Source: Candidatus Brocadia sinica JPN1
GTDB lineage: Bacteria; Planctomycetota; Brocadiia; Brocadiales; Brocadiaceae
NCBI RefSeq assembly: GCF_000949635.1
Contig: NZ_BAFN01000001.1
Coordinates: 620,001 to 684,000 of the forward strand
Length of the DNA stretch: 64,000 nt
Direction of reading: 5' to 3'
Part shown: positions 2,433 to 58,911 of the stretch, in pieces
How the letters are laid out: each line of letters starts with the position of its first letter
How positions within the stretch are numbered: the first letter of the stretch is position 1
Translations under genes and position numbers: made by a program
The notes under the pieces: generated by a model
What the model saw: the letters and a program-made list of their open reading frames with translations, nothing else
What the model was told of the DNA's origin: nothing
Database searches by the model: none

Positions 2433-4133
2433 ATGGCAAGAATTCTTGTAATCGACGATGAAGAGAATATCAGATTTACCTTTGAAAGCTTCCTTTCAGA
2501 CGAGGGGCATGAGGTGACAACTGCCGGGGACTATGACGAGGCATTGACAATACTTGATAAATCTGATTTTGATTTGATATTTGCAGACATTGTTTTGGGC
2601 GATAAAAGTGGTATAGACATCCTGAAATATATTAAGAAAAAAAATCTCACCTGTCCGGTGGTCGTGATTACAGGCGCCCCCGACATTGAGACTGCTTCGG
2701 ATGCACTTCGGCTCGGCGCCTTCGACTACATTCCTAAGCCTGTACTACAAAATACCTTATTGCGTATTACAAAAGTGGCATTACAACATAAAGCACTGGC
2801 AGATGAAAAGGAGAAATATCGAACGAACCTTGAGGCGATATTCAGGAGTGTAAAAGATGCAATTATTACCGTCGATAAGGATTTGTTCGTAGTCGAATTA
2901 AATGAAGCAGCCAAAAACATTTGTAACTTATCTCGTGATTCTATTGGGAAATCGCTGAGTTTGCTTCAGAGACATTGTGATGAGAAGTGTCTCGATTCCC
3001 TTAAAGAAACCATCAAGACAAAGCAACCCATTGAAATTTGTAATCTCGAATGTAAACACAACTCTCATCCACAGCAGGTTGTAAGCATCGCTAGCTATCC
3101 GCTTTTGGATAATAAAGGCATCTTTTCCGGGGCGGTACTAGTGGTAAAAGACGATACGCATCTTGTTGATCTGGAAAGAGATATGAGAGAACGCCGGAAA
3201 TTCTACAATATTATAGGAAAAAGTGAGAAGATGCAGGCAATTTACTCTTTGATAGAAGACCTTGCTGATGTGCAGACTACAGTGCTGGTAACGGGAGAAA
3301 GCGGGACAGGTAAAGAGCTGATAGCCGAGGCGCTTCATTACACCGGAGAACGCAGCCACAAACCTCTGGTCAAAGTAAACTGCTCGGCTTTATCGGAGAA
3401 TTTACTTGAAAGCGAACTCTTTGGCCATGTTAAGGGCGCCTTTACTGGCGCTGCTCAGAATAGGGCTGGCAGATTTCAGAAGGCAGATGGTGGAACCATA
3501 TTTTTGGATGAAATTGGTGACATATCTCCCAGGATACAACTTCAGTTATTAAGAGTGTTACAGGAAAAAGAATTTGAGCGTGTTGGTGACTCTAATCCCA
3601 TCAAAGTGGATGTCAGAGTCGTTGCCGCTACGAACCAGAATCTTCGGGAAAAAGTGAAGTGCGGCGAATTTCGGGAAGATCTGTATTACCGGCTTAAAGT
3701 AGTGGAAATGAATCTGCCGCCATTAAGGGAGAGGCTGGAAGATATACCGCAGCTTGTAAATCATTTTTTAAAAAAGTTCAATAAAAAGTTAGACAAGGAT
3801 ATTGTAGCAATATCTGCTGATGTCCAAAAAATATTTATGAATTATTCATGGCCAGGTAATATCCGGGAACTGGAACATACCATGGAGCATGCATTTATCC
3901 TCTGCCATCACAACATTATTACGGTAGACCATCTACCACTTGCTTTTAAAGACGTAATGGGAACTAAATCTTTTTTGTCAAAAGATTTAAGGCCTGATGA
4001 ATCAAATATTATCCTTCGAGCGCTTGAACAATCTGCATGGAATAAAGCCAGGGCTGCAAGACTGTTGGGCATGAGTAGGCGTACTATTTATCGAAAAATG
4101 AAAGAGTACAACATAGGGTTACAAGATAAATGA
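2433..4133 (+). CDS. Sigma54-dependent response regulator, REC-PAS-AAA+-Fis
   Basis: Start chosen at ATG 2433 because AAGGAGGAAA sits just upstream; this gives 566 aa beginning MARILVIDDEEN. Receiver domain ~1-115 with acidic pair DDE and phospho-acceptor D52; a PAS-like domain ~135-260; sigma54-interaction AAA+ domain with Walker A GESGTGKE, the sigma54-contacting GAFTGA loop, Walker B GGTIFLDEIGD and arginine-finger region; and a C-terminal Fis-type helix-turn-helix (AARLLGMSRRTIYRKM). It should activate RNA polymerase-sigma54 at an unidentified promoter. Its position after the kinase at 1-2158 makes the two a likely pair. An internal PAS between REC and AAA+ is less common than the plain NtrC layout. 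Confidence 0.93.
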   Translation: MARILVIDDEENIRFTFESFLSDEGHEVTTAGDYDEALTILDKSDFDLIFADIVLGDKSGIDILKYIKKKNLTCPVVVITGAPDIETASDALRLGAFDYIPKPVLQNTLLRITKVALQHKALADEKEKYRTNLEAIFRSVKDAIITVDKDLFVVELNEAAKNICNLSRDSIGKSLSLLQRHCDEKCLDSLKETIKTKQPIEICNLECKHNSHPQQVVSIASYPLLDNKGIFSGAVLVVKDDTHLVDLERDMRERRKFYNIIGKSEKMQAIYSLIEDLADVQTTVLVTGESGTGKELIAEALHYTGERSHKPLVKVNCSALSENLLESELFGHVKGAFTGAAQNRAGRFQKADGGTIFLDEIGDISPRIQLQLLRVLQEKEFERVGDSNPIKVDVRVVAATNQNLREKVKCGEFREDLYYRLKVVEMNLPPLRERLEDIPQLVNHFLKKFNKKLDKDIVAISADVQKIFMNYSWPGNIRELEHTMEHAFILCHHNIITVDHLPLAFKDVMGTKSFLSKDLRPDESNIILRALEQSAWNKARAARLLGMSRRTIYRKMKEYNIGLQDK

Positions 4134-6796: not shown

Positions 6797-6866
6797 GCCG
6801 CTTGCGTAGTGACAGATACTTGCGTTATAAGTAGTTACAATGAATGTAAATAGAAATGGATATGAT

Positions 6867-7265
6867 ATGTATGTTGGTGTTGATATTATAGAAATAAGAC
6901 GTATTGAGAAATTGTTTTCTGCTAACGAAGATTTTCTGAGGAGAATTTACACGGAAAAAGAAGTGGAGTATTGTAAACAAAAGAAGAACAAATATCAACA
7001 TTTTGCAGCTCGCTTCGCCTCAAAAGAGGCAATGTTCAAGGCCCTGGGGACTGGCTGGATCGATAAAATGAAATGGACGGATATTGAGCTCTTAAATGAT
7101 GAAATGGGCAAGCCATATTTGAATCTTTATGGCAGTGTAAAAGAATTGGCAGACAAGAAACGTATCAATACGATATCTGTATCATTATCCCACTGCCACG
7201 ATTACGCTATTGCCCAGGTTTTGTTAATGCCAAAGGCAATACCAGAAGTCTCGCCTGATGGTTGA
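6867..7265 (+). CDS. acpS: Holo-[acyl-carrier-protein] synthase
   Basis: Transfers the 4'-phosphopantetheine arm from CoA to an apo acyl carrier protein. The 132-aa product from ATG 6867 starts MYVGVDIIEIRRIEK, matching the family N-terminus; an upstream ATG at 6840 would add nine residues of no family likeness. The Mg-binding Asp of GVDIIEI and the FAARFASKEAMFKALGTG block with its catalytic Glu/Lys are present, and length is normal. No ACP gene is adjacent. The gene precedes a radical SAM enzyme and two ketosynthase genes on the same strand, which suggests a dedicated acyl-carrier pathway, though it may simply be the housekeeping AcpS. Confidence 0.9.
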   Translation: MYVGVDIIEIRRIEKLFSANEDFLRRIYTEKEVEYCKQKKNKYQHFAARFASKEAMFKALGTGWIDKMKWTDIELLNDEMGKPYLNLYGSVKELADKKRINTISVSLSHCHDYAIAQVLLMPKAIPEVSPDG

Positions 7266-7381
7266 CTCCAACCCAAAATATCGTAGTTAAATATGGGAAA
7301 TTCCCATTACCACTGTCGACAGCTTGCCGCTAACTTAAACGAACAAACGAAATAGTTATAAAACTGAAAATAGGTAAGAAA

Positions 7382-7590
7382 ATGACAACTGCCGTTATTT
7401 CAGGACATTGGACATACGATGAGTATTATAATCTAGACGATAAGCAGAGGTACGAAGTTATTGAGGGGGATGGCTTATTGTGGCACCTGCGCCGTTCTTT
7501 AAACATCAGGAAGTAGTAACGAGACTTGTACGGCTTATATCAAATTATGTTTATGAAAATGCAAAGAATTTGATTTTTCTGCTTTTTCTG
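7382..7590 (+). pseudogene. Uma2-family (DUF820) endonuclease remnant
   Basis: Reading from ATG 7382 gives a typical Uma2 start (WTYDEYYNLDDKQRYEVIEG). The frame is then lost by a small indel near 7470, and the next frame continues the family pattern with LIVAPAPFFKHQEVVTRLV before running out at ~7590. A normal Uma2 protein is about 180-200 aa, so over half is missing. The remnant fills most of the gap between acpS and the radical SAM gene. The rest of that gap (7266-7381) holds only a short hairpin, ATGGGAA/TTCCCAT at 7292-7306. Confidence 0.65.
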
Positions 7591-7610
7591 CATCTAAAAG
7601 AGGTATATTC

Positions 7611-9092
7611 ATGAAAAGACTTGTATTGATCAATCCACATCCAATTGGAAATGTTGGTGAGGAGAATGTCTCGGTATTAAATCAAATGCCTGTGAATCTC
7701 GGCTATCTGAAGGTATTAACACCAAAACACTGGCAAGTCGATATCATCGATGAAACCCAGGAACTTGCGATTGATGAAAATACAGGGGAGATTACTTTTG
7801 GTGGGGCTGACCTGGTCGGTATTACATCGGTAAGTTATCAGGCTCATCGTGCATATCAGATAGCTACTGCCTGTAAAAAACGGGGCGTACCGGTGATTAT
7901 GGGTGGTATTCACGCAACCAGTTACCCGGAAGAGGCGGCAAAATACGTGGATTGTGTTGTGACCAGGGAAGCTGTAACCACCTGGGAAAAGATTATTGGT
8001 GATTTTGAAAAAGGCTGCCTCCAAAAAAGATACGATGGTGTTCTGACACCCATGGAGTTGTATCAGGGATTGCGTCCGGATAGAAAATATTTGAAGGATA
8101 AGTATAAATACCGATATTCAGGTATTATTACTACTGCAGGATGCCCATTTAGCTGTGAGTTCTGCTCTGTGCCCCAGTTCCAGGGCAGAAAATATCGTGA
8201 AAGACCCATCGAGGATGTCCTTGATGAGTTCGAGTCCATTAAGGGACAATATCGCGGTTTGATACTGACGGATGAAAACTTCTACGGCCATAGTAAAAAG
8301 TCCAACGAGCGTGTCCGGGATCTTTTCAAAGGTATGGTGGATAGGGGTATTTACCAGAACTGGTTTGGTTTTACCTCCCTTAATATTTATAAAGACGACG
8401 AAACCCTTGAATATATGAGGAAAAGCGGATGTGTTGGTGTATTAATCGGTATTGAGTCGATCAACGAAGAAGCCTTGAAAACGATGAACAAGAATGTAAA
8501 TTTGCGCATCTCTATTGAAAATTATTTTGAGGCCATTGCCAATATCCGCAAACACGGCCTTGCCGTATGGGGGACGATGGTCTTTGGAAATGATGCCGAT
8601 ACCCCGGAGACCTTTAAACAAGTTGCCGATTTTGTTCTGGATTCCCATGTTGATATTATGACCTGCGGCATTTTGTGTCCATTTATCAATACGCCGCTTT
8701 ATCACCGGTTGAACGGTGAAGGAAGGCTTTTCAGGACAGACTTTCCGGAGGATTGGAAGTATTACACATCGCATCATCTCACCTATGTTCTGAAAAGCAT
8801 GTCTCTTCAGGAACTTATCGATGGATTTCAATATTTGTATGACAGGATTTATGCTACTGAAGTTCTCCGGCAGAGATTCCAGAATGCAAAAGAGGTGCTG
8901 AAAGACAATATGAATGCCGCCATGTTTGCATTCAGGGTAAATTTGGATTGGCAAAATGTATACCAGCACCTGATCCAAAATTTAAAGGAACTGCAAGCAT
9001 CGGGGTTCTATGACGAGGCCTTGAAGCGATATAACGCCCAGAAAAAGCAGGGGAAAAAGGTCGAGTTGACACCGATTGAGGTATCATCCTAA
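7611..9092 (+). CDS. B12-binding-domain radical SAM enzyme
   Basis: A 493-aa protein with an N-terminal cobalamin-binding-like Rossmann domain (~1-150; VGITSVSYQAHRAYQIA and PVIMGGIHATSYPEEA are typical). The radical SAM core (~165-390) has cluster cysteines in AGCPFSCEFC. A C-terminal domain of ~100 aa is uncharacterised. The classical DxHxxG cobalamin motif is not seen. Members methylate or rearrange unreactive carbon positions using SAM and often cobalamin; BchE-like enzymes belong here. It is 175 bp upstream of an intact FabF-type ketosynthase. Radical SAM enzymes next to fab-type genes have been proposed for ladderane lipid synthesis in anammox bacteria, a pathway still unproven. Substrate not assignable from sequence. 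Confidence 0.88.
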   Translation: MKRLVLINPHPIGNVGEENVSVLNQMPVNLGYLKVLTPKHWQVDIIDETQELAIDENTGEITFGGADLVGITSVSYQAHRAYQIATACKKRGVPVIMGGIHATSYPEEAAKYVDCVVTREAVTTWEKIIGDFEKGCLQKRYDGVLTPMELYQGLRPDRKYLKDKYKYRYSGIITTAGCPFSCEFCSVPQFQGRKYRERPIEDVLDEFESIKGQYRGLILTDENFYGHSKKSNERVRDLFKGMVDRGIYQNWFGFTSLNIYKDDETLEYMRKSGCVGVLIGIESINEEALKTMNKNVNLRISIENYFEAIANIRKHGLAVWGTMVFGNDADTPETFKQVADFVLDSHVDIMTCGILCPFINTPLYHRLNGEGRLFRTDFPEDWKYYTSHHLTYVLKSMSLQELIDGFQYLYDRIYATEVLRQRFQNAKEVLKDNMNAAMFAFRVNLDWQNVYQHLIQNLKELQASGFYDEALKRYNAQKKQGKKVELTPIEVSS

Positions 9093-9204: not shown

Positions 9205-9253
9205 AGGTCAACGATTCACCTTGGAAGGGTGAATCGTTGACCTCTCTTGTTTT
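9205..9253 (+). terminator. Hairpin terminator or attenuator before the KS gene
   Basis: A perfect 16-bp stem, AGGTCAACGATTCACC at 9205-9220 pairing with 9228-9243, has a 7-base loop and is followed by CTCTTGTTTT. It follows the radical SAM gene by ~110 bp and ends 15 bp before the ketosynthase ATG at 9268. It may terminate the upstream transcript or control the ketosynthase in its leader. Confidence 0.7.
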
Positions 9254-9267
9254 AACGGTTGAAAAAT

Positions 9268-10479
9268 ATGCCACAGGTTGTAATTACGGGATTAGGATTG
9301 GTCACACCCATTGGGGTTGGTGTTAAGCAAAGCTGGGAATCGTTCATCCAGGGCAGGAACGGGGCCAATGAGATGAAGTCCTTTGATACCTCTAAATATA
9401 AAGTTCATCGCTCCTGTGAAGTAAAAAATTTCCAATGGGACTTTGAATTAGAGAATCAGATTAAGGAAAACACCATCCATAAATACGTTTACTATGCAGC
9501 CAGAGAGGCATTGCAGGAAAGTGGTTTGTTACATGACAAGAAATCCGATCGGGAACGGTTTGGTATTGCCATAGGGACGCTTGCAGCCGAATTAACGCCA
9601 TTTGAAAGGCTTTTGCGTTTAGATACCTCAAAAAAAGATAACGGTTTCGATAAAATCGTTGCAGCCGTTTACCCGCCCAATTCGATTACCAATATTCTCG
9701 CTCACTATTTTGATTTTGAGGGTCCAACCATGATCTCACTGAATGCCTGTTCATCGGGCAATCACGCCATTGCCTGGGCTTATGACCTCCTTGTGGATAA
9801 TAAGATGGATGTCGTAATGGTTGGCGGCGGTGACATGATTCCTCAAACGGAATTTACCCACTTTCACAACCTCAAAGCCCTGGCTCCTGATCGTTGTCAG
9901 CCTTTCGATAAAAATCGTCAGGGACTCATGATTGGGGAAGGGGCCGGGATACTGATTATGGAGCGTTACGAGTTTGCCAAAAAACGCGGGGCAGCGATTA
10001 TTGCTGAAATGGCTGGTTATGGTTTGAGCTGTGATGGATTTCACATGACGGCGCCCCACCCAGAGGGTGACGGCGCAGTAAAATGCATGAGCGATGCGTT
10101 AAGGATGGCAAAGCTTTCTCCCGCAGATATCGGTTACATCAATGCCCACGGTACGGGTACACCCCATAACGATAAGACGGAAACTATTGCTATAAAACGC
10201 GTATTTAACAAGGGCGCATATAAGATTCCCTGCAGTTCTACCAAATCTATGATTGGTCATCTCATGGGCGCTGCGAGTGCGGTAGAATCGGTCGTTTGCT
10301 GCCTGGTACTCAGGCATGGTATAGTTCCCCCGACGATTAATTATGAAACACCCGACCCGGAATGCGACCTCGATTATGCACCCAATGCGGCACGCGAGTT
10401 AAAAGTGAAGCATGTCTTAAATAACTCCTTTGCCTTTGGTGGTAACAACGCTACGACGATATTCAGTAGGATGGGTTAG
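9268..10479 (+). CDS. Beta-ketoacyl-ACP synthase II (FabF-type), catalytically intact
   Basis: Condenses an acyl thioester with malonyl-ACP. From ATG 9268 the protein is 403 aa, normal for FabF. The catalytic triad is complete: Cys161 in NACSSGNHA, His294 in NAHGTGTPHND and His331 in IGHLMGAAS, with the conserved Lys in CSSTKSMIGH. The ORF could extend to a TTG at 9259. No clear Shine-Dalgarno is visible, and a strong hairpin lies just upstream. It is followed by a second, non-catalytic ketosynthase in the same direction, the arrangement seen in KS/chain-length-factor pairs. An ordinary housekeeping FabF role cannot be excluded, but the neighbours point to a special fatty acid or polyketide product. 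Confidence 0.92.
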   Translation: MPQVVITGLGLVTPIGVGVKQSWESFIQGRNGANEMKSFDTSKYKVHRSCEVKNFQWDFELENQIKENTIHKYVYYAAREALQESGLLHDKKSDRERFGIAIGTLAAELTPFERLLRLDTSKKDNGFDKIVAAVYPPNSITNILAHYFDFEGPTMISLNACSSGNHAIAWAYDLLVDNKMDVVMVGGGDMIPQTEFTHFHNLKALAPDRCQPFDKNRQGLMIGEGAGILIMERYEFAKKRGAAIIAEMAGYGLSCDGFHMTAPHPEGDGAVKCMSDALRMAKLSPADIGYINAHGTGTPHNDKTETIAIKRVFNKGAYKIPCSSTKSMIGHLMGAASAVESVVCCLVLRHGIVPPTINYETPDPECDLDYAPNAARELKVKHVLNNSFAFGGNNATTIFSRMG

Positions 10480-10628: not shown

Positions 10629-11864
10629 ATGAAAAAGCGAGTCGTTATTACCGGTTTAGGTGTCGCATCCCCTCTGGGATGTAGCAAAGAGGACTTCTGG
10701 AATAATCTTATTGCCGGAAAGTCGGGTGTTGCACCCATGTCTTCTCTGGACCTCTCTCCCTATAAATGCAAACTGGGCGGTGAGATAAGAGACCTTAAAC
10801 CCGAAATACACCTCGGCAGCAAGGGTTTAAAGTACTTGAACAAGGGTACACGATTCCTGGGATCAGCTGCTAAGATGGCCATTGATGATGCAAAACTTCC
10901 AACAGATGGTTCCCTATCAGAACAGATGGGTATCGTTATCGGCTCATCTCTGGGCAACTTTTCGGAAACAACGGATTATTTTTATGAAATTATCAGGAAT
11001 AATCCATCCGAATTATCACCCATGCTCAGCTACGATGTTGCATTGAATTCTTCCATCAACTACGTCTCGGTCATCTTTAAAATCAAGGGACTTGCCCGCA
11101 CCATATCAGCAGGTTTTACGTCCAGTACCGATGCCATAGCGGATGCATCTAAGATGATTCAACGGGATATGGCCAAGGTAATTGTGGCAGGCGGCGTCGA
11201 GCAGATATCCATTGATTTGTATCTGATATTTTACCTGCGCGGCCTGTTATCGGGTCTTGATGGTACAAGAGAGGCGAGTTTACCCTTTGATAAGGCGCGA
11301 AATGGTTTTGTCATGTCAGAGGGCAGTTACGTGGTCATCCTTGAAGAGCTTCAGCACGCACTTGACAGAGGAGCCCATATCTATGCAGAGGTAAAAGGCT
11401 TTGGTAATACCTTCGTGGGCGGTAAAAACCATCCGGCAGAAGTAAGAGTGCGTCGTGCCGAAAAGGCCATGAACGATGCACTGGAAGACGCAGGGGTAAA
11501 AAAAGGGGATGTTGATCTCATCAGTGCAAATGCAAATGGATGCAAGATGCAGGATGCAGTGGAGGCAAAGGCAATCCAGTCTTTATTTGGTGCAAATAGC
11601 AATTGTATTCCCTTATCAGCAATAAAATCGAACATCGGAGAATCGTACGGTACCTCCGGTGCAGCACAACTCATTTCATCGCTCATGTCAATAAACACAG
11701 GTCAAATACCGCACATTATCAATCACAGCAACAAAGATCCAGAAATCAATCTGAATCTCGTTCTGGAAAAATCACTCAAAAAAGAAATTCAAAACGCAGT
11801 GATAAATGCCATGGATTATGAGGGAAATAATTCATGTCTGGTGATAAGCAAATATAACAAATAG
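10629..11864 (+). CDS. Ketosynthase-like protein lacking all catalytic residues (chain-length-factor-like)
   Basis: A 411-aa FabF-fold protein, full length and collinear with the preceding KS (N-terminal VVITGLGVASPLG, the mid-domain DGTREASLPFDKARNGFVMSEG, C-terminal AIKSNIGES). The triad is gone: the nucleophile position in ISAGFTSSTDAI is Phe163 instead of Cys, the first His is Asn303 (NANGCKMQD) and the second is Glu338 (NIGESYGTSGAAQ). The Lys before the second site (K333) is kept. This is the hallmark of KS-beta/chain-length factors in type II polyketide and aryl-polyene systems, although those commonly carry Gln at the Cys site. Probably forms a heterodimer with the intact KS upstream. 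Confidence 0.88.
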   Translation: MKKRVVITGLGVASPLGCSKEDFWNNLIAGKSGVAPMSSLDLSPYKCKLGGEIRDLKPEIHLGSKGLKYLNKGTRFLGSAAKMAIDDAKLPTDGSLSEQMGIVIGSSLGNFSETTDYFYEIIRNNPSELSPMLSYDVALNSSINYVSVIFKIKGLARTISAGFTSSTDAIADASKMIQRDMAKVIVAGGVEQISIDLYLIFYLRGLLSGLDGTREASLPFDKARNGFVMSEGSYVVILEELQHALDRGAHIYAEVKGFGNTFVGGKNHPAEVRVRRAEKAMNDALEDAGVKKGDVDLISANANGCKMQDAVEAKAIQSLFGANSNCIPLSAIKSNIGESYGTSGAAQLISSLMSINTGQIPHIINHSNKDPEINLNLVLEKSLKKEIQNAVINAMDYEGNNSCLVISKYNK

Positions 11865-11898: not shown

Positions 11899-13622
11899 AT
11901 GTTCTTGTGCTTTTTTAGAAACTTATACAAACCTTGTATTTTTTCACTTATAACACTCTTTTCATTTGTTTCCTCCACCCTAAGTGCTTCAGAAGCTATT
12001 ACGAACAACTTACCAACTTTTCCAATAGAATCTTATCAAACTGAACCGACCAATAGTTGGACACCTCAGGAAAAATGGGTTTGGGATTGTATATGCAGAG
12101 GTGAAATTGCAGACTTTAATAAAGCAGAAAATTATGGTAGTAATCTCGACCCAAAAATTTCTGAGGTATGGTCTGAAAATAGAATATTACGACCAGAATT
12201 TCTGGAGACTGTCGTTTTTGACGAACATTTCCGCAGTTTAATAACACGCAATGGCATTTGTATCCGTGGCGCTTGGTTTAGGGAACCCCTTAATCTTTCA
12301 AATGCAATTCTTAATTTCCCATTTGCATTAGAAGGTTCTCGCTTCGAAGAGGATGTATATTTTTCATTCTTAAAAACTTCTCATCTTTTATACTTCGCTG
12401 AAAATAAGTTCCTAAAAAGATTAAATATGACCTCTGTTCAAATAGAAAATCACCTGATTATAGAAAAAGGGTGTGAATTTGACTTGATCTTCTGATTCGG
12501 AGTATAACTGCGTTTACAAAAGGTGTAGATATTGATAATGCTAAAATAGAAGGCCAATTTGAGATTAGTAATTCAAATTTCATAGACGAAGTAAATTTTA
12601 TTGGAACCAAAGTCAGTAGTAAATTAATAATATTAGATTCAAAATTTACAGAAAATCTGAATATGAGAGAAATAGAGGTAAAAGATAATCCTGTAATATC
12701 TGAAAAATCTACTTTTACAAAAGTGATTCTTGCTGATGCAAAAATTGGGAGGGAATTATACATAATAGAATCTAATTTTTCAGATGAATTGCTTATGGGT
12801 TCAATAGAAGTGAAAACAGGTATTATTATGGCAAATAGCAGGTTTAATAAAAACGTATCACTTCGATATGGTAATATTTTTAAAATTTTAGATATATCTT
12901 CTAATACCTTTTCTTCTTTAGATTTAACAGGAACGATAATAAACGGTGAATTACGGCTTATTTCAAGGGAACAGAAACCTACGCAGTGGGATAAAGAGAA
13001 AACATTTATCCTCAGCAATACACAAGTTGACTGTCTAGATGATGTGCCTGAGTCATGGCCAATAAACTTGGATTTAGAAGGATTTAAGTACGATCGGTTA
13101 AGTAGGATATCCATGAGAGAAAAAATTGATATTACTATAAAAAACCATTCCTGGTTTAAAAATTGGTTAAGCAGACAAAGGAATTATACCCCTCAACCAT
13201 ACGAACAACTTGCAAGTGTTTTACAAAAGGCAGGCTATAATGAAAAAGCGAAAGAAATCATGTTTGAAAGCAGAGAACGAGAGAGGAAAGGCGTTGAGGG
13301 ATGGACTCGCTGGATTTATTTAAGTCTTCTTAAATATTTAATTGGTTACGGTTATTATTTATTGCAGGTGGTCTATTATTTATTAGGATTGGCGACATTT
13401 GGTACGTTAATTTTCTTTAAATATGTAAAAAATGGAAATAATAACTTATTGAGAGCCTTTTGTTACAGTTTAGACAGCTTGTTTCCTTTTGTTCATTTTG
13501 ATAAACAGCACGATGAGGTAAAATTGCGTGGATTTGCACGTTATTATTTCTTTTTCCACTCAATTGCAGGATTTATCCTTTCTTATTTTTTTATTGCCGG
13601 AATAACAGGGCTTACAAAGTAA
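11899..13622 (+). pseudogene. Secreted/membrane protein with pentapeptide-like repeats, frameshifted
   Basis: Two adjacent frames (11899-12495 and, from ~12483, the frame ending 13622) read as one ~575-aa protein interrupted by a frameshift between 12480 and 12495. The first part has an N-terminal signal or anchor segment (SLITLFSFVSSTLSAS). The middle of both halves is a run of short beta-type repeats, e.g. NLSNAILNFPFALEGSRFEE and similar units, as in pentapeptide-repeat-like proteins. The end has two hydrophobic segments (~13330-13440 and ~13550-13615), with a charged link. A/T content is visibly higher than in the neighbouring lipid genes. I cannot name a function. It may be a true mutation or a sequencing error. 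Confidence 0.6.
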
Positions 13623-13689: not shown

Positions 13690-15545
13690 CATGTAAAAAG
13701 GTCGGCACTACAGACCGACCTATCCTGATGCATAAATCTTGGACAGAGGTTGTTCAGGAAGCGTCAATCCCAATTGTGCCAAAAGGAGAACAACATCCTT
13801 TTCCGGCTGTGTATAGCGGCTCATGACAATGTGGCGACCATCCGTTGTCGGTAAATGAACGTCAATCATTTGAATGCTCGATAGTTTTTCCAAAATTGCT
13901 TCAGACGTCAACCCTGCGGCTCGTCCCCGCGCAAGATTTCGCAGCGTCGTGTGGAGACAGAATGCCAAAAAGGAGACAAAAATATGGGCTTCAATCCTCC
14001 TTTCCAATTGGTGCCATATGGGGCGGATGGAAAGCGATCCCTTTAAATCCTTGAATGCCTGTTCAATCCGCGTCAACAGCAAATAATTTTCCCACACGGT
14101 TTCTGGTGCGGTGGCTTGCATGTTGGAACGGAGCAAATAACGCCCCTCGCGCCGATACGCCTGCCTCAGGCGTTCCCGATCCAAACTGAACCGGAACGTA
14201 TTTTCATTGACCGGCTCCTGCGGTTTGGGAATGGAAATATTGACCAATCTGAAGTCTCGTCCGGCTTCTTTCTTTAACGCGCCAATATGCATGAGCAGAT
14301 CATCGCGCGTGAGGACCTTTCGATTGCGAAGTTCGCGCAAACCCGCCCACAAACGTCTGAGTCTGCGCCAACGCATGGAACGTTCCTTGGCCACCCGGTC
14401 CTGGCTTTCCACGTAAACGTAAAACTCCGACTCTTGCTGAAGAATTTTCACACGGACGCTTTCCCGCGCCTGCATCCACGTCTGTTCAAGCAACGGTTTT
14501 TCTACCCGCGTCAAATGCCCCTTCGGAGTACCAACCAAATAATCAATCCCCCGCTCACGCATCTTTTCCAACACCTCCTCCGTTGGAATACCTCTATCCA
14601 TGAGCCAGGTGCGCCGAAATTTCCCATACCGCTTTTCTATCCGATCCAGAAACTCCTCTAATGTCGCAGTGTCTCTTGTATTACCGGGATATACTTCGTA
14701 GGCGACGGGAAACCCTTCCGGCGTCAATACCAACGCCACTACCACCTGCACACAATCCGAACGTTTGTCACGACTGTACCCAAAACGTTTTTTACTCACA
14801 GCATCCGCCGCCGGCGGTTCACTCTCGAAATACGTACTCGTCAAATCATACAGCAGCACATCATACTTCGCGCCAAACAGCTTGCCCCATTGCCCTTTTA
14901 AAAAACCAAACAGCTCGTCGCGGTGCTCAAGCAGCAAATCCAAACAACGATACAGCTTATCCTTCTGTGCCAGCGAATCATCTTCCCCCAACAAATCTCC
15001 CATTGCGCTACGCACATACCACTCACGGTGAAAACGAAATTCGCTTCCCGGATCGATCAGCCGGTAACAGACAAGCGCCTTGAGCATATTCAGCCAGCTT
15101 GTCCCCTTCCGGCTTGATGGCAGACGACTCCTCCAAAAGATGTCCAGTTCCAACATATCCCACAAATATAATCCCAACCAACTTGCTCCCCATTGCCGGG
15201 GACAGCGCAATTCTATTTTGTCCAACCTCACCTGGACGGTCTCACAATCCGGTATGGGCAAGGCTTCCCGGTCGTCCGGAAATAATGCCACTTGTCTTGC
15301 TGTGGGCTTTTCACCCGCGACCGCCTCTATCGTCCGAACCCACCCCGCTCGCTGGTTGTCATTGAGTTCTCCCAGGTAGAGCACTTGTCGCTGTACCACT
15401 CTGCCTCCGCTGATCCGACGGTTCTCTACTACGCTCCAATACTGGTGGGTTTTCCCGTCTTTTGTCCGTGTCTTTTCTCGTAAAAACATGCGGACATTTT
15501 CTCACGCCACCGTGAAGTCGTCAAGAGGGTAGGTCGGCACTACAA
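13690..15545 (-). mobile_element. IS1634-family insertion sequence
   Basis: The transposase gene is flanked by related ends. The right flank (15527-15545) reads GGTAGGTCGGCACTACAAG. The left flank (13699-13730) holds AGGTCGGCACTACA followed by its own partial complement GACCGACCTATCC. The inner CCGACCTATCCT and, on the other strand, CCGACCTACCCT are matching terminal inverted repeats. The same AGGTCGGCACTACA string also occurs in direct orientation outside both ends, so the exact boundary is uncertain by about 20 bp. Confidence 0.7.
13720..15489 (-). CDS. IS1634-family (IS4/DDE superfamily) transposase
   Basis: A 589-aa transposase, the usual length for IS1634 members. Signatures: YDLTSTYFES around the first catalytic Asp, GYSRDKRSDCVQVVVALVL, the second Asp in WLMDRGIPTEE, and the C-terminal RIEQAFKDLKGSLSIRPIWH with the catalytic Glu region followed by RIEAHIFVSFLAFCLH. 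No internal stop, so it may still be active. G+C is higher than in the frameshifted gene beside it, as expected for an incoming element. It transcribes against the surrounding genes. Confidence 0.93.
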   Translation of the reverse strand: MFLREKTRTKDGKTHQYWSVVENRRISGGRVVQRQVLYLGELNDNQRAGWVRTIEAVAGEKPTARQVALFPDDREALPIPDCETVQVRLDKIELRCPRQWGASWLGLYLWDMLELDIFWRSRLPSSRKGTSWLNMLKALVCYRLIDPGSEFRFHREWYVRSAMGDLLGEDDSLAQKDKLYRCLDLLLEHRDELFGFLKGQWGKLFGAKYDVLLYDLTSTYFESEPPAADAVSKKRFGYSRDKRSDCVQVVVALVLTPEGFPVAYEVYPGNTRDTATLEEFLDRIEKRYGKFRRTWLMDRGIPTEEVLEKMRERGIDYLVGTPKGHLTRVEKPLLEQTWMQARESVRVKILQQESEFYVYVESQDRVAKERSMRWRRLRRLWAGLRELRNRKVLTRDDLLMHIGALKKEAGRDFRLVNISIPKPQEPVNENTFRFSLDRERLRQAYRREGRYLLRSNMQATAPETVWENYLLLTRIEQAFKDLKGSLSIRPIWHQLERRIEAHIFVSFLAFCLHTTLRNLARGRAAGLTSEAILEKLSSIQMIDVHLPTTDGRHIVMSRYTQPEKDVVLLLAQLGLTLPEQPLSKIYASG

Positions 15546-54163: not shown

Positions 54164-56593
54164 TTATCTTGCCAGATAGCCAGGGTAAAAATCAGGACCC
54201 TGGATGTTATCCCACTGCGCCCCGATGTCTATCCACTCGACAAACAAATACCTCTCATCCTGCGTGAGGAATTTGTCGTGCATTACCCTTCCTTCAATCG
54301 GGAATACATTCTCTCTCGGCGCAAACTGACTCAAAGCCTCTTCATACAGCCTCCAGATCAACAAGCTGTTGATGGCTGATGATGGATGAACATACTTGCC
54401 GCCAAGGTTGGGATCCTTACCCCTCTGTGGTTCAAGCAAACTATTGTATGAACGGCTGAATGCTGCAACACCATCAACACTCGCCAGCTCTCCACCACCA
54501 CTCAAGTCCGGAGGATTGTTCGCATTGTGACAACCCGAACACTTTGCATCGATGATCGGCTGAATATCCCTGCGGAAATCCACCGTCCTCCTCTTCTCAT
54601 CTGTTAGACCTTCCACTGGCTGTGATGTCGTACCTGATGGTCCTCCATAGTACACGTCCGATGGCACCACCACATCCTCACCATGTTTTACCCCCTGATA
54701 GTTACCATTCTTATCAAGCTTCAGGTATGCAAATGCAAATGGTGAATCATAGTGACTCCTGTCATCATACCACCAGTTGTACAACGCCTTCGTGTGCTGG
54801 TTCTGGAATGCCCTGCCCCTGTAGGAACCATCATGACATCCACTGCAAATCCTGCCATGATATGGCCTCAGATATGCCCATGATAACCCGCTCTGCACTG
54901 CCATCCCCTTGTCATCCAATATCTGAATGTAATAAGGGGTGTCTGCCGTCTGTGACGTAACCACCGACCCGTCATCCTCTACATACTGATACCCGATTAT
55001 CCTTCTCTGCTGGAATGCAGTCCCTGAGTTGCTGCTTGACCTCTCTCCACCCAAAAGGTGGCTTCCAACTCCAGCCTTGAACCTGCTTGCCTCAGGCTCC
55101 ACACACTGCACACCCTGTACTATCCTCACTGCCTTCACATCGCCCGGCTTCATTACCTTCGCCCTCTCGGATGGATACGGGCCAACCTTCGTGTCTGTCA
55201 GTGTCGTGTCAAAACAAATCCATGTGCCCCAGGAATGTGGATATCCCTCCACCTTCACCTGGTCAAATGGCTGATACGTCACTGTCGTTACACCAAAGTT
55301 CTTCCCTGCGGTAAAGGTATTGATCCACCTTGGCTTGTACTTAATATACACAGGCGCTGGTTGATGATCGTTCCACTCCGGATCATTGTATACTAATTCC
55401 CCTGCCTTGCCATTCTTGCAGTCAAACCAATAGATTCCAAAATCACCTCTCTCTGCATAGGACACCAACATCCTGTCATCTGGAAGTGGGTATGGGCTCC
55501 TGTACAATCCACCATCATCCTTCGTCAGCCTCTCGTAGGTCTTGTTATAGGGAGCATCCCAACTGACTGCTGCCAATTGACCAACACCCCAGTTCATATA
55601 GGGTGACTCTACATATACCAGCTTTCTGTCTCCAAAGGTGATCTTGGCCTGAGATCTGCCACATGCGCCACCAATCTCATCCGGGCAGTTACCATAAATC
55701 GCCCTTGGATACGCGCCATCCCAGTTGTCTACTTCCAGCAACACCCTGCCTTTGCCTTCTGCCCTGCTACCATTGGCCTGGACGCTGGAAAACAGGATGT
55801 TTCCATCCGGCGTAAGCGCAGGATCATAGTTTGAACTCACGTTGTAAGTGATCTGATCTATCGAAGTATTCAGATGAGGAAACTCTATACCAGACAGCAC
55901 GTGACCGGTAATTCTCTCTGTCACATGGCCTCCCTGCGTATCCAACCTGAAAAGATTATACGCATACGGATTATGGAACTCGTCCCTCACGCCATCCGGA
56001 GAACCTGCGAAGATGATGAACCCCGTCTTCTCTACCGTGCCCCTCTCCTTCCAGTCTCCTTCAAAATACCTGTCTCTCCATATCACGCGACCCTGACCCT
56101 CTTCAATACTACCTGCCGCATAATAGATCGGGCTACGACAAGTACCTTTATAATCAGTCATCTGCCTTATCCCGCTGCCATCTACATTCATCTCCCATAT
56201 CTGACATCCGCCGCCCTTCTTGTGGATCCCGGCAAACGCAAACTTCTTACCATCCCAGTACGTGCAGGGATCAAAAGCTGACGCAAAATCATTGGTCAAT
56301 ACCTTCAATTCCTTTGTCTTTAAATTGTAGCTTACAATCCGGCTGCCCTCTGACACATAGTGCGGATAGTTCTGATACGGATCACCCTTTGCCGTCCTGG
56401 GTGACTGGGTAAACAATATCACGTCCACAGGACCCTGTACCTCTTTCGACATCCCGCTATAATCCGTCCATAAGGCCTTTCCCTGCTTCGAACCACCCGT
56501 CATTACCTGATTCGATGCAAAGATATCCCCACAGACCAACGCACCGACTACCAACGCCGATGCCATTACCCCTCCTATTATCCTCTTACTCAT
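54164..56593 (-). CDS. hzsA: Hydrazine synthase subunit alpha
   Basis: Catalytic subunit that joins NO-derived hydroxylamine and ammonium to hydrazine in the anammoxosome. Start ATG 56593 (AGGAGA upstream) gives 809 aa and a signal peptide (ASALVVGALVCGDIFA). Two heme c sites, RICSGCHDGSY and AKCSGCHNAN. With this start the first CXXCH His is residue 587 and a Tyr follows at 591, matching the His587/Tyr591 numbering I recall from the Kuenenia structure, where Tyr ligates active-site heme alpha-I. A beta-propeller-like N-terminal half (SAFDPCTYWDGKKFAFAG) is also present. Last gene of the three-gene operon. Confidence 0.96.
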   Translation of the reverse strand: MSKRIIGGVMASALVVGALVCGDIFASNQVMTGGSKQGKALWTDYSGMSKEVQGPVDVILFTQSPRTAKGDPYQNYPHYVSEGSRIVSYNLKTKELKVLTNDFASAFDPCTYWDGKKFAFAGIHKKGGGCQIWEMNVDGSGIRQMTDYKGTCRSPIYYAAGSIEEGQGRVIWRDRYFEGDWKERGTVEKTGFIIFAGSPDGVRDEFHNPYAYNLFRLDTQGGHVTERITGHVLSGIEFPHLNTSIDQITYNVSSNYDPALTPDGNILFSSVQANGSRAEGKGRVLLEVDNWDGAYPRAIYGNCPDEIGGACGRSQAKITFGDRKLVYVESPYMNWGVGQLAAVSWDAPYNKTYERLTKDDGGLYRSPYPLPDDRMLVSYAERGDFGIYWFDCKNGKAGELVYNDPEWNDHQPAPVYIKYKPRWINTFTAGKNFGVTTVTYQPFDQVKVEGYPHSWGTWICFDTTLTDTKVGPYPSERAKVMKPGDVKAVRIVQGVQCVEPEASRFKAGVGSHLLGGERSSSNSGTAFQQRRIIGYQYVEDDGSVVTSQTADTPYYIQILDDKGMAVQSGLSWAYLRPYHGRICSGCHDGSYRGRAFQNQHTKALYNWWYDDRSHYDSPFAFAYLKLDKNGNYQGVKHGEDVVVPSDVYYGGPSGTTSQPVEGLTDEKRRTVDFRRDIQPIIDAKCSGCHNANNPPDLSGGGELASVDGVAAFSRSYNSLLEPQRGKDPNLGGKYVHPSSAINSLLIWRLYEEALSQFAPRENVFPIEGRVMHDKFLTQDERYLFVEWIDIGAQWDNIQGPDFYPGYLAR

Positions 56594-56669
56594 CTGTTGG
56601 CCTTCTCCTTTCACTTTCTTAAAATATTCCACTTGAACCAATTACTTTCTCTTCCAATACTTCCACTAC

Positions 56670-57692
56670 TTATAGCGCCTTCAGGAACTCCACCAAATCC
56701 TGCAAATCCTGAGCGCTCAGGTGTGACGTCCTTCCATGCATGTCCTTATCATTTACCGTGTTGTTGATCGTATCAATCAACGTCCTGGCGCTCCCGTCAT
56801 GGAAATACGTGCCTGATGCATAGATGTCCCTTAGCGTCGGAGTATCAAATTCCTTTACCAGGTCCAACCCAATGATCGGCGTATCGCTCTCCTCTCCATA
56901 GGGATCCTCACCGGCATTCAATGCCTGCATGTTAAATACCTTACCCGGCGTTGACCTGAAACCCTTCACTCCTACACGACCGGTTCCCACATCATGGGTC
57001 TGTGCATCGCTAAACAAGGCTTTCGGATCCATTGCATCCCCCGGATGACACTCTGCACATCCCACAGCAGGGTCGTTAAATAACTTCTCACCCCTCTTTG
57101 CCGCCTCTGTCAAACTGCCATCCGCATTCCTGAACGGACTTCCCGTAAACTCCAATGCCCTGATGTAACAAATCAAAGATTCTAACCTCTCCGGCGAAAA
57201 GTTCTCGCTCCTGAACACAAACCCAGGGTCTCTTCCACACACCCTGTCCAGAGAACTTGTTGCACCTACGATTTCATCCGGATGACCCGTAAACCCTTCA
57301 TGCCTGAACGGAGGCAAATACCTTCCGCCACGGATATACTTCACGTTCTTCCAGCTTCCCCATCCTTCATCTCCAAGGTCCCAGATCAAACCCGTCGTCT
57401 GTCCCCTCTCATAATGGCAGCTGGCGCATGCATACTCACCCTGCAACCCCCATGATGCATCATTGAATATGAACTGCCCGTACCTCACCAGCTCACTCTT
57501 GAATGGTGAGTGTTTTACCCGATAATGCACCTCAGGCACCGTCAATGGCTCACCCCTGGGAAGAGGCTCCCACTCCGGCCCCGTCTGGATCGTTGCTACT
57601 ACCTGCGGCGTACCCGCCATCAACTCTCCAGTTGTCATCACCCCTGCTATACCAAGGGCCGCAATTAAACCAATCTTTAGACTACTCTTCAT
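56670..57692 (-). CDS. hzsB: Hydrazine synthase subunit gamma (diheme, MauG/CCP-like)
   Basis: 340 aa, signal peptide (IGLIAALGIAGVMTTGELMA). Two heme c sites, CASCHYERG and CAECHPGDA, in a cytochrome c peroxidase/MauG-like fold (VGVKGFRSTPGKVFNMQALN, DTPTLRDIYASGTYFHDGSA). In the known complex this subunit supplies the site forming hydroxylamine from NO. AGGAGG lies upstream of ATG 57692. It is separate from the beta gene, as in freshwater genera. Gene letters follow the hzsCBA order; subunit names are less ambiguous. Confidence 0.94.
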   Translation of the reverse strand: MKSSLKIGLIAALGIAGVMTTGELMAGTPQVVATIQTGPEWEPLPRGEPLTVPEVHYRVKHSPFKSELVRYGQFIFNDASWGLQGEYACASCHYERGQTTGLIWDLGDEGWGSWKNVKYIRGGRYLPPFRHEGFTGHPDEIVGATSSLDRVCGRDPGFVFRSENFSPERLESLICYIRALEFTGSPFRNADGSLTEAAKRGEKLFNDPAVGCAECHPGDAMDPKALFSDAQTHDVGTGRVGVKGFRSTPGKVFNMQALNAGEDPYGEESDTPIIGLDLVKEFDTPTLRDIYASGTYFHDGSARTLIDTINNTVNDKDMHGRTSHLSAQDLQDLVEFLKAL

Positions 57693-57780
57693 CTTTCTCT
57701 ATCCTCCTATAATCGAGATATACTCCAATGTTACAAACATGCTCAATTCCTGTCCTGCTTCTCTCAACGACCTTCCCCTA

Positions 57781-58911
57781 TTAATCCACTGGCGTCCTTA
57801 TCACCGTCACATTGTTGGAAAAATAGTTGGCTGCGTAGCAGAGCTTCCCGTCCGGCGACAAGCATACCGAGCTAGGCCCTAGCCCCGTTGGCACCCTGGC
57901 CACGAGATAATCCCTCACCAATCCAAGGTCATCCCTCATATAATCAAGCTCAGCCTGGGAATTTCCCCTCACGATATTCAATAACTTGCCCATATCCAAT
58001 ATCGTTACGCGGTGCATCCCCCTTACCCCAATGTACAAATACCGGCCCTTCGGATCCATCGCCAACCCATAAGGATTCCCGTCATAGTTGTTGAGCTCGT
58101 CCAGCGGCATCCTCGCTACCTTCCCGCCTGGCTTGGTCTCTAACACCGCTATGTTGTTCGTAAATACCTCGCCATTCTCCGCCTCGCATACCGGTAACCA
58201 GTTCTTCGGCGTCTCATAGGTCACCACCACATACTGACCATCCGGCGTGTACACAATGTCCCTCAGGTTGGAACTCTCCCTGATAACCCTCTTCTCCGTC
58301 ACCTTCCCCGTCGCAAGATCAATAAAGTTTACACTCCTGTTGATGGAACCACACGTGTCATTCACCACTGCTATCGTCTTCCCGTCCGGCGATATATCCA
58401 ACGTCCTTGGACCGTAATCACTCGTGTAGATCGACCTGATCTTCTCCATCCTCCCTGTATCAATCACATCGATCGTGTTCCACAAGTTCCCAGAACATGC
58501 AACATACGCGGTCTTCCCATCCTTGGAAATCTTGATCCCGCTTGGCCAGTCTCCTACCTTGATCTCCTTTATCGCCTGCTTCCTCGCTATATCTATCACC
58601 GACACACTGTCACTCTCGGCATTGCATACATACAAAAATGCATTATCAGGCGTGGGCGCCGCTGCCTCCGGCTGCACCTGCACTGCCACCTCACCTACCA
58701 CCTTCTGTGTCTTCGCATCCACAAACGTCACACTGTGACCAGACTGATTGCAAATGTACAACATCCCTCCATCCGGCGATGTCGTAACAAAAAACGGCGA
58801 TGGCATGTCCGTCTTCACATGCGTCCCCTGGATAAATCCAGCATTCGCTACCCCTCCTCCCACCATCACCGCCCCCAATACCAACGCTCCTATCCATCCT
58901 CTCTCTTTCAT
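57781..58911 (-). CDS. hzsC: Hydrazine synthase subunit beta (beta-propeller)
   Basis: 376 aa, signal peptide (GALVLGAVMVGGGVANA). Seven-bladed YVTN-type beta-propeller: repeats such as SPDGGMLYICNQSGHSVTFV, DNAFLYVCNAESDSVSVIDI and SPDGKLCYAANYFSNNVTVI. No heme motif. It scaffolds alpha and gamma in the complex. First gene of the operon, with AGGAGGGAAGGAAGAGCG before ATG 58911; 88 bp separate it from the gamma gene. Symbol follows hzsCBA order. Confidence 0.94.
   Translation of the reverse strand: MKERGWIGALVLGAVMVGGGVANAGFIQGTHVKTDMPSPFFVTTSPDGGMLYICNQSGHSVTFVDAKTQKVVGEVAVQVQPEAAAPTPDNAFLYVCNAESDSVSVIDIARKQAIKEIKVGDWPSGIKISKDGKTAYVACSGNLWNTIDVIDTGRMEKIRSIYTSDYGPRTLDISPDGKTIAVVNDTCGSINRSVNFIDLATGKVTEKRVIRESSNLRDIVYTPDGQYVVVTYETPKNWLPVCEAENGEVFTNNIAVLETKPGGKVARMPLDELNNYDGNPYGLAMDPKGRYLYIGVRGMHRVTILDMGKLLNIVRGNSQAELDYMRDDLGLVRDYLVARVPTGLGPSSVCLSPDGKLCYAANYFSNNVTVIRTPVD

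Follow-up and report, generated by a model that had tools for sequence, protein, structure and literature searches.

A conserved ketosynthase-like protein of anammox bacteria with Phe, Asn and Glu at the catalytic positions is probably the non-catalytic subunit of a heterodimeric ketosynthase

What might a ketosynthase contribute when most residues of its catalytic set have been replaced? This question is raised by an open reading frame at positions 10629–11864 (+) of the window, the whole 64,000-nucleotide stretch of Candidatus Brocadia sinica JPN1 DNA that was analysed. The frame runs from ATG to TAG without interruption and encodes a 411-residue protein, hereafter KSbeta (kuste2805-type). 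The protein matched both Pfam ketoacyl-synthase domains and scored 315.4 bits with the FabF/KAS II model TIGR03150, below its curated cut-off of 493.75. Alignment to FabF of E. coli K-12 showed that the catalytic Cys and two His are absent from KSbeta, with C163, H303 and H340 of the E. coli enzyme corresponding to Phe163, Asn301 and Glu338, respectively. The catalytic Lys is retained (K335, Lys333 in KSbeta) and E349 corresponds to Gln347. A preliminary description of this DNA had placed Phe163 at the nucleophile position and reported both His as changed, as we also found, but its naming of Asn303 as a His site mixed two numberings: residue 303 of KSbeta is Asn too, but aligned with E. coli T305. 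Its view that decarboxylation in the Gln mode is unlikely also appears sound from the residues. KSQ-type decarboxylases have Gln at the nucleophile position and keep both His, and such a role is ruled out for KSbeta by Phe163 and the loss of both catalytic His.

The replacements themselves are not new, as they have been in print since 2009 for the orthologue kuste2805 (CAJ73556; listed as FabB or non-canonical FabB) of a different anammox genome. Table 2 of Rattray et al. 2009 (PMC2649909) gives the kuste2805 residues, in its own numbering, as Phe163, Asn298, Asn300, Cys302, Lys328, Glu333 and Gln342; Phe163, Asn, Lys, Glu and Gln are shared with the window protein. The passages of that paper on kuste2805 judge its active site to be unlike that of other FabB/F and treat the protein as a divergent member of FabB/F whose substrate was not known, with no label as a KSbeta subunit.

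KSbeta is the last gene of a cassette in which it is preceded, on the same strand, by genes for a holo-ACP synthase (acpS, kuste2802-type, 6840–7265), a B12-binding radical SAM protein (kuste2803-type, 7611–9092) and a second ketosynthase, KSalpha (kuste2804-type, 9268–10479 from its first ATG; the searches used 9259–10479 or 9274–10479). The same gene set is listed in PMC4790861 for kuste2802–2805 of Kuenenia stuttgartiensis (AcpS, radical SAM, FabF, non-canonical FabB), and both its gene order and its Phe/Asn/Lys/Glu/Gln residues place the window KSbeta in the kuste2805 orthologue group. KSalpha, which ends 149 bases before KSbeta, has an intact Cys-His-Lys-His set and, based on its residues and adjacency, is the presumed heterodimer partner. 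All 51 distinct kuste2804-type sequences have Cys-His-Lys-His-Glu. Of 46 loci fetched from 45 genomes (one of them represented twice), 43 have KSalpha upstream of KSbeta in the same orientation, and at many of these the ORFs touch or overlap. The three loci with no visible KSalpha have just 753, 46 and 207 bases upstream of KSbeta, and a second stretch from the genome with the 207-base locus does contain KSalpha. The radical SAM gene and acpS are also conserved members, the complete four-gene cassette being inside the fetched stretch at 37 of the 46 loci.

Several other features were observed around the cassette. A perfect hairpin at 9206–9242 (+), between the radical SAM gene and KSalpha (−29 kcal/mol, z −6.5), is followed by a T-rich stretch and could be a terminator or attenuator that splits the cassette in the window genome. 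Between acpS and the radical SAM gene, a short coding-looking remnant was seen by eye (7380–7610, +), which we take to resemble the start of a Uma2-type protein. Two ORFs just 3' of KSbeta had no Pfam match (11899–12495 and 12663–13622, +) and may be one gene broken mid-way (11899–13622); a DDE transposase (13720–15489, −) lies after them.

Orthologues of KSbeta (50–100% identity) were identified in 56 of 62 anammox-order genomes, with Ca. Brocadia species among the close relatives of the window genome. The six genomes with no orthologue (G001, G012, G025, G026, G032 and G414) are each in at least 230 contigs, and three of them carry hydrazine synthase. In a sample of the phylum, an orthologue was present in 32 of 36 order members and in none of 356 other genomes, and the best matches outside the order reached 1e-76 and ~35% identity. 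The hydrazine synthase domain PF18582 was found in 40 of the 62 order genomes, among which no clearly non-anammox member was found as a control. The window also contains a hydrazine synthase alpha gene (PF18582; 54164–56641, −) that, together with genes for cytochrome c peroxidase-like and beta-propeller proteins (54164–58911, −), is probably hzsCBA; a second alpha copy is present elsewhere in the genome.

The preliminary description had asked whether Phe/Asn/Glu forms a conserved clade, and had named random variation among orthologues as the sign of decay. Among 56 distinct orthologues (a count excluding one truncated copy of the window protein, L039), Phe163, Lys333, Glu338 and Gln347 were each found in 56/56 and Asn301 in 55/56 (Gly once), and the kuste2805 clade had a branch support of 100/100 after removal of the catalytic columns. 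No random variation of the replacements was seen. Across these orthologues 81 of 411 columns are invariant, and 101 are conserved in at least 55 sequences; all five sites are among the latter (hypergeometric P = 0.0008, a rough value as alignment columns are not independent). Median dN/dS relative to the window copy was 0.069 for KSbeta (33 of 44 rows with a finite value), 0.050 for KSalpha (28 of 40) and 0.025 for the radical SAM protein (12 of 37), ratios that are rough because dS was high, and for which saturated-dS rows were dropped and some genomes were counted twice, in narrow and wide loci. The loss of three catalytic residues could be taken to mean that KSbeta is a decaying ketosynthase pseudogene whose frame is open by chance, but the frames are open in 56 orthologues and there are 81 invariant columns. 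Since the replacements are fixed in these orthologues and dN/dS is ~0.07, we conclude that they do not represent decay, a reading that residue conservation and purifying selection effectively rule out.

An AlphaFold model of KSbeta (80 rows) had a mean pLDDT of 91.5, with low values only at residues ~111–140. It replaced an initial model (12 rows, pLDDT 70.6) that was poor around the active site and whose Foldseek matches indicated the FabF fold only. Comparison using VIA-align gave a Z of 61 against B. subtilis FabF (2.2 Å, 407 residues) and of ~59–60 against chains of the ishigamide and actinorhodin KS/CLF entries. The predicted fold is that of a complete FabF-type ketosynthase which, like a chain-length factor, is without the nucleophile Cys. 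Residues ~111–140 align with the interface or gating segment of FabF and CLF, and F111, T114 and F118 align with the gate residues F109, T112 and F116 of the act CLF. This correspondence of gate residues was given no weight because the 3606 and Fibrobacter copies that were read lack T114.

The genome has a second ketosynthase pair (kuste3603–3608 type), whose KSbeta' is 39% identical to KSbeta and whose cluster encodes an ACP, FabZ, KSalpha', KSbeta', a phytoene-desaturase-like protein and a radical SAM protein. Close homologues of KSalpha', KSbeta' and the ACP are chains B, C and E of PDB 9s5h/9s5i. As read from the database entries rather than from coordinates, both KS subunits are present in one entry, and 9s5i contains the ACP as well. 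A literature search found no publication on these entries, and they were absent from the structure matches to the KSbeta model (entries released to April 2026). Both this pair and the window pair consist of a KSalpha and a KSbeta that lacks Cys and His but keeps Lys, Glu/Asp and Gln, with a radical SAM gene in the cluster. In contrast to the window pair, the kuste3605/3606-type cluster has an ACP, FabZ and a desaturase-like gene, and position 163 in 16 distinct KSbeta' rows is Val (11), Glu (4) or Thr (1), not Phe. At the other positions these rows have Asn (11) or Cys (5) at 303, Glu (13) or Asp (3) at 340, and Lys and Gln in all 16. Given V, E or T at position 163 of the 3606 clade, similar behaviour of the 2804/2805 and 3605/3606 pairs should not be assumed.

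The radical SAM proteins of the 2803 and 3608 types are ~51–55% identical, and either is ~24–27% identical to those of other phyla. A clean co-duplication of the radical SAM-KSalpha-KSbeta block was unsupported: the KSalpha 3605 clade grouped with KSalpha of other phyla (93/87), KSbeta gave no clear match to this, and a topology comparison rejected neither alternative (p-AU 0.31). Another ketosynthase of the same genome (L005, G000:C1:384131–385369) has a half-changed active site, with Cys and His303 kept and Gln at the His340 position.

Scanning a collection of 84,980 species, each represented by a single genome, with two clade peptide patterns identified 57 loci, 46 of them anammox-type and 11 from Fibrobacterota (including Chitinispirillum-type) or Spirochaetota. 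The latter matched at 27–32% identity, with KSalpha as the listed match in eight. In all 11, KSbeta comes after KSalpha (truncated by a contig end in one); residue 163 of KSbeta is Phe in 10 and Tyr in one, His is never present at 303, and Lys335 and Glu340 are present throughout; a radical SAM gene was inside the fetched stretch in nine. A profile search then gave KSbeta in 24 of 167 Fibrobacterota and 3 of 296 Spirochaetota genomes, its loci (L168–L193) including the 11 genomes already found by the peptide patterns. The 28 KSbeta from these 27 genomes have Phe (24), Tyr (2) or Leu (2) at 163, no His303, Lys335 in 26 (Arg in 2) and Glu340 in 27 (His once). KSalpha adjoins all 28, with Cys-His-Lys-His in 27 and one cut before the Cys. 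The single His340 belongs to L194 (Spirochaetota, G682:C70:67678–68901); this KSbeta-like protein also has Phe163 and Glu303 and is possibly an intermediate or a separate branch. An anammox-only distribution of the Phe/Glu type was overturned by these pairs, of which a literature search found no report. Flanking genes were read at two of the 11 loci. That of a Spirochaetales genome (L155) has KSalpha, KSbeta, a desaturase-like protein, an ACP and a B12-radical SAM protein, and that of a Fibrobacter (L163) has a radical SAM protein, FabG, FabZ, KSalpha, KSbeta, a metallo-beta-lactamase-fold protein, an unassigned protein and a second radical SAM protein.

Trees were built from 81 and then 62 rows after near-identical rows had been thinned, with L165 left out. 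When the catalytic columns were removed, a branch with 93/94 support separated the KSbeta of all three groups (29 rows) from the 33 other rows, which include all KSalpha and FabF. Based on this branch, the KSbeta proteins look like one family, with caution on the topology owing to long branches flagged by the tree tool. The separate non-catalytic clade suggested in the preliminary description was recovered as a fully supported branch, but it does not stand alone; it lies inside a wider KSbeta group that holds kuste3606 and the Fibrobacterota and Spirochaetota proteins.

Gln at the nucleophile position is typical of actinobacterial type II PKS chain-length factors, and KSbeta departs from this in having Phe. 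The earlier generalization that chain-length factors typically have Gln held for one of the two Streptomyces proteins read (L109 and L167) but the other has Glu. These proteins, and actinorhodin 1tqy chain B, resemble KSbeta in having a full-length ketosynthase fold, no nucleophile and an adjoining KSalpha, a position that KSbeta occupies next to an intact-set KSalpha in those 43 of 46 loci. The two Streptomyces chain-length factors are ~32–33% identical to KSbeta, come from aromatic polyketide clusters and differ in their residues, with Gln or Glu at 163, Asp at 303 and Arg at 340. They fell with KSbeta on one side of a branch (82/80, long branches), which makes common descent possible; simple membership in the actinobacterial group does not fit the residues. 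The aryl polyene KS-CLF subunit ApeC, as described in PMC8358021, is likewise a non-catalytic ketosynthase partner in a polyene pathway, but is about half the size, with one thiolase domain, whereas KSbeta is full length.

Based on the gene pairing, the fixed loss of catalysis and the solved entry of the paralogue, we propose that KSbeta is the non-catalytic subunit of a heterodimeric ketosynthase with KSalpha, chain-length-factor-like but of a separate Phe/Glu type (probability roughly 0.78). KSbeta would have kept a full-length ketosynthase fold, given up catalysis and paired with the KSalpha encoded upstream. KSalpha would hold the acyl chain on its Cys and decarboxylate malonyl-ACP with its two His. 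KSbeta would form no acyl-enzyme, since Phe163 replaces the Cys, and with both His gone it would not be expected to decarboxylate malonyl-ACP. Its part would be to line and cap the acyl tunnel across the dimer interface, shaping it and so setting which chain the pair extends, and it may help to dock the ACP. The solved entry is of the paralogous pair, and for 2804/2805 both the heterodimer and the tunnel shaping are inferred. The 149-base gap between the two genes in this genome, the six order genomes with no orthologue and the differing residue 163 of the 3606 clade weigh against the proposal.

Two other readings grant KSbeta a function. Rattray et al. 2009 (PMC2649909) suggested for divergent FabF paralogues that they feed fatty acid synthesis with a moiety from outside FASII, for example a preformed ladderane, and KSbeta could be such an enzyme in its own right, with changed chemistry. 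Its invariant Glu338 and Lys333 could mean a working site, but are equally compatible with a structural salt bridge; moreover, Phe at the nucleophile position in 56/56 excludes the usual acyl-enzyme, Asn301 falls short of strict conservation, and a catalytic ketosynthase adjoins KSbeta wherever there is room to see one. We consider this reading unlikely. KSbeta might instead be a homodimeric or free scaffold that binds ACP or acyl chains and is no partner of KSalpha, and the intact fold of the predicted monomer would suit such a role. This too is unlikely, given how closely KSbeta is paired with KSalpha across the anammox order and at all 28 KSbeta loci of the two other phyla, and given the presence of the paralogous pair together with ACP in the solved entry.

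The KSalpha/KSbeta pair probably serves ladderane lipid synthesis, a pathway assigned by association from the anammox-restricted 2805 clade and the cassette content. Cobalamin radical SAM enzymes have been proposed, in the part of PMC13142503 that concerns them, to form the ladderane cyclobutanes, which makes a place for the cassette in this pathway plausible. In the account given in PMC4790861, expression of genes of this type in E. coli yielded no new fatty acids and the proteins were largely insoluble; in that 2016 trial kuste2804 and kuste2805 were in separate synthetic operons (3 and 4), and later versions were tested individually. If kuste2804/2805 form one heterodimeric ketosynthase, both should be expressed and assayed together.

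As far as our searches tell, the KSbeta reading, the order-wide fixation of the residues and the relatives in two other phyla are new relative to the literature. A broader and more doubtful idea, which we offer as speculation, is that Phe/Glu-type KSbeta, KSalpha and a B12-binding radical SAM protein define a class of anaerobic synthases, for lipids or polyenes, with the ladderane system as one branch. If this speculation is correct, polycyclic or polyunsaturated acyl chains would be expected in some Fibrobacterota and Spirochaetota, built by the same logic, and the anammox 3603–3608 cluster would have a simple relative in the Spirochaetales locus. The biosynthesis of ladderane lipids is still an unsolved problem and genetic work with anammox bacteria is difficult, and the non-anammox relatives offer independent organisms and loci in which to search for products and for clues to ladderane synthesis.
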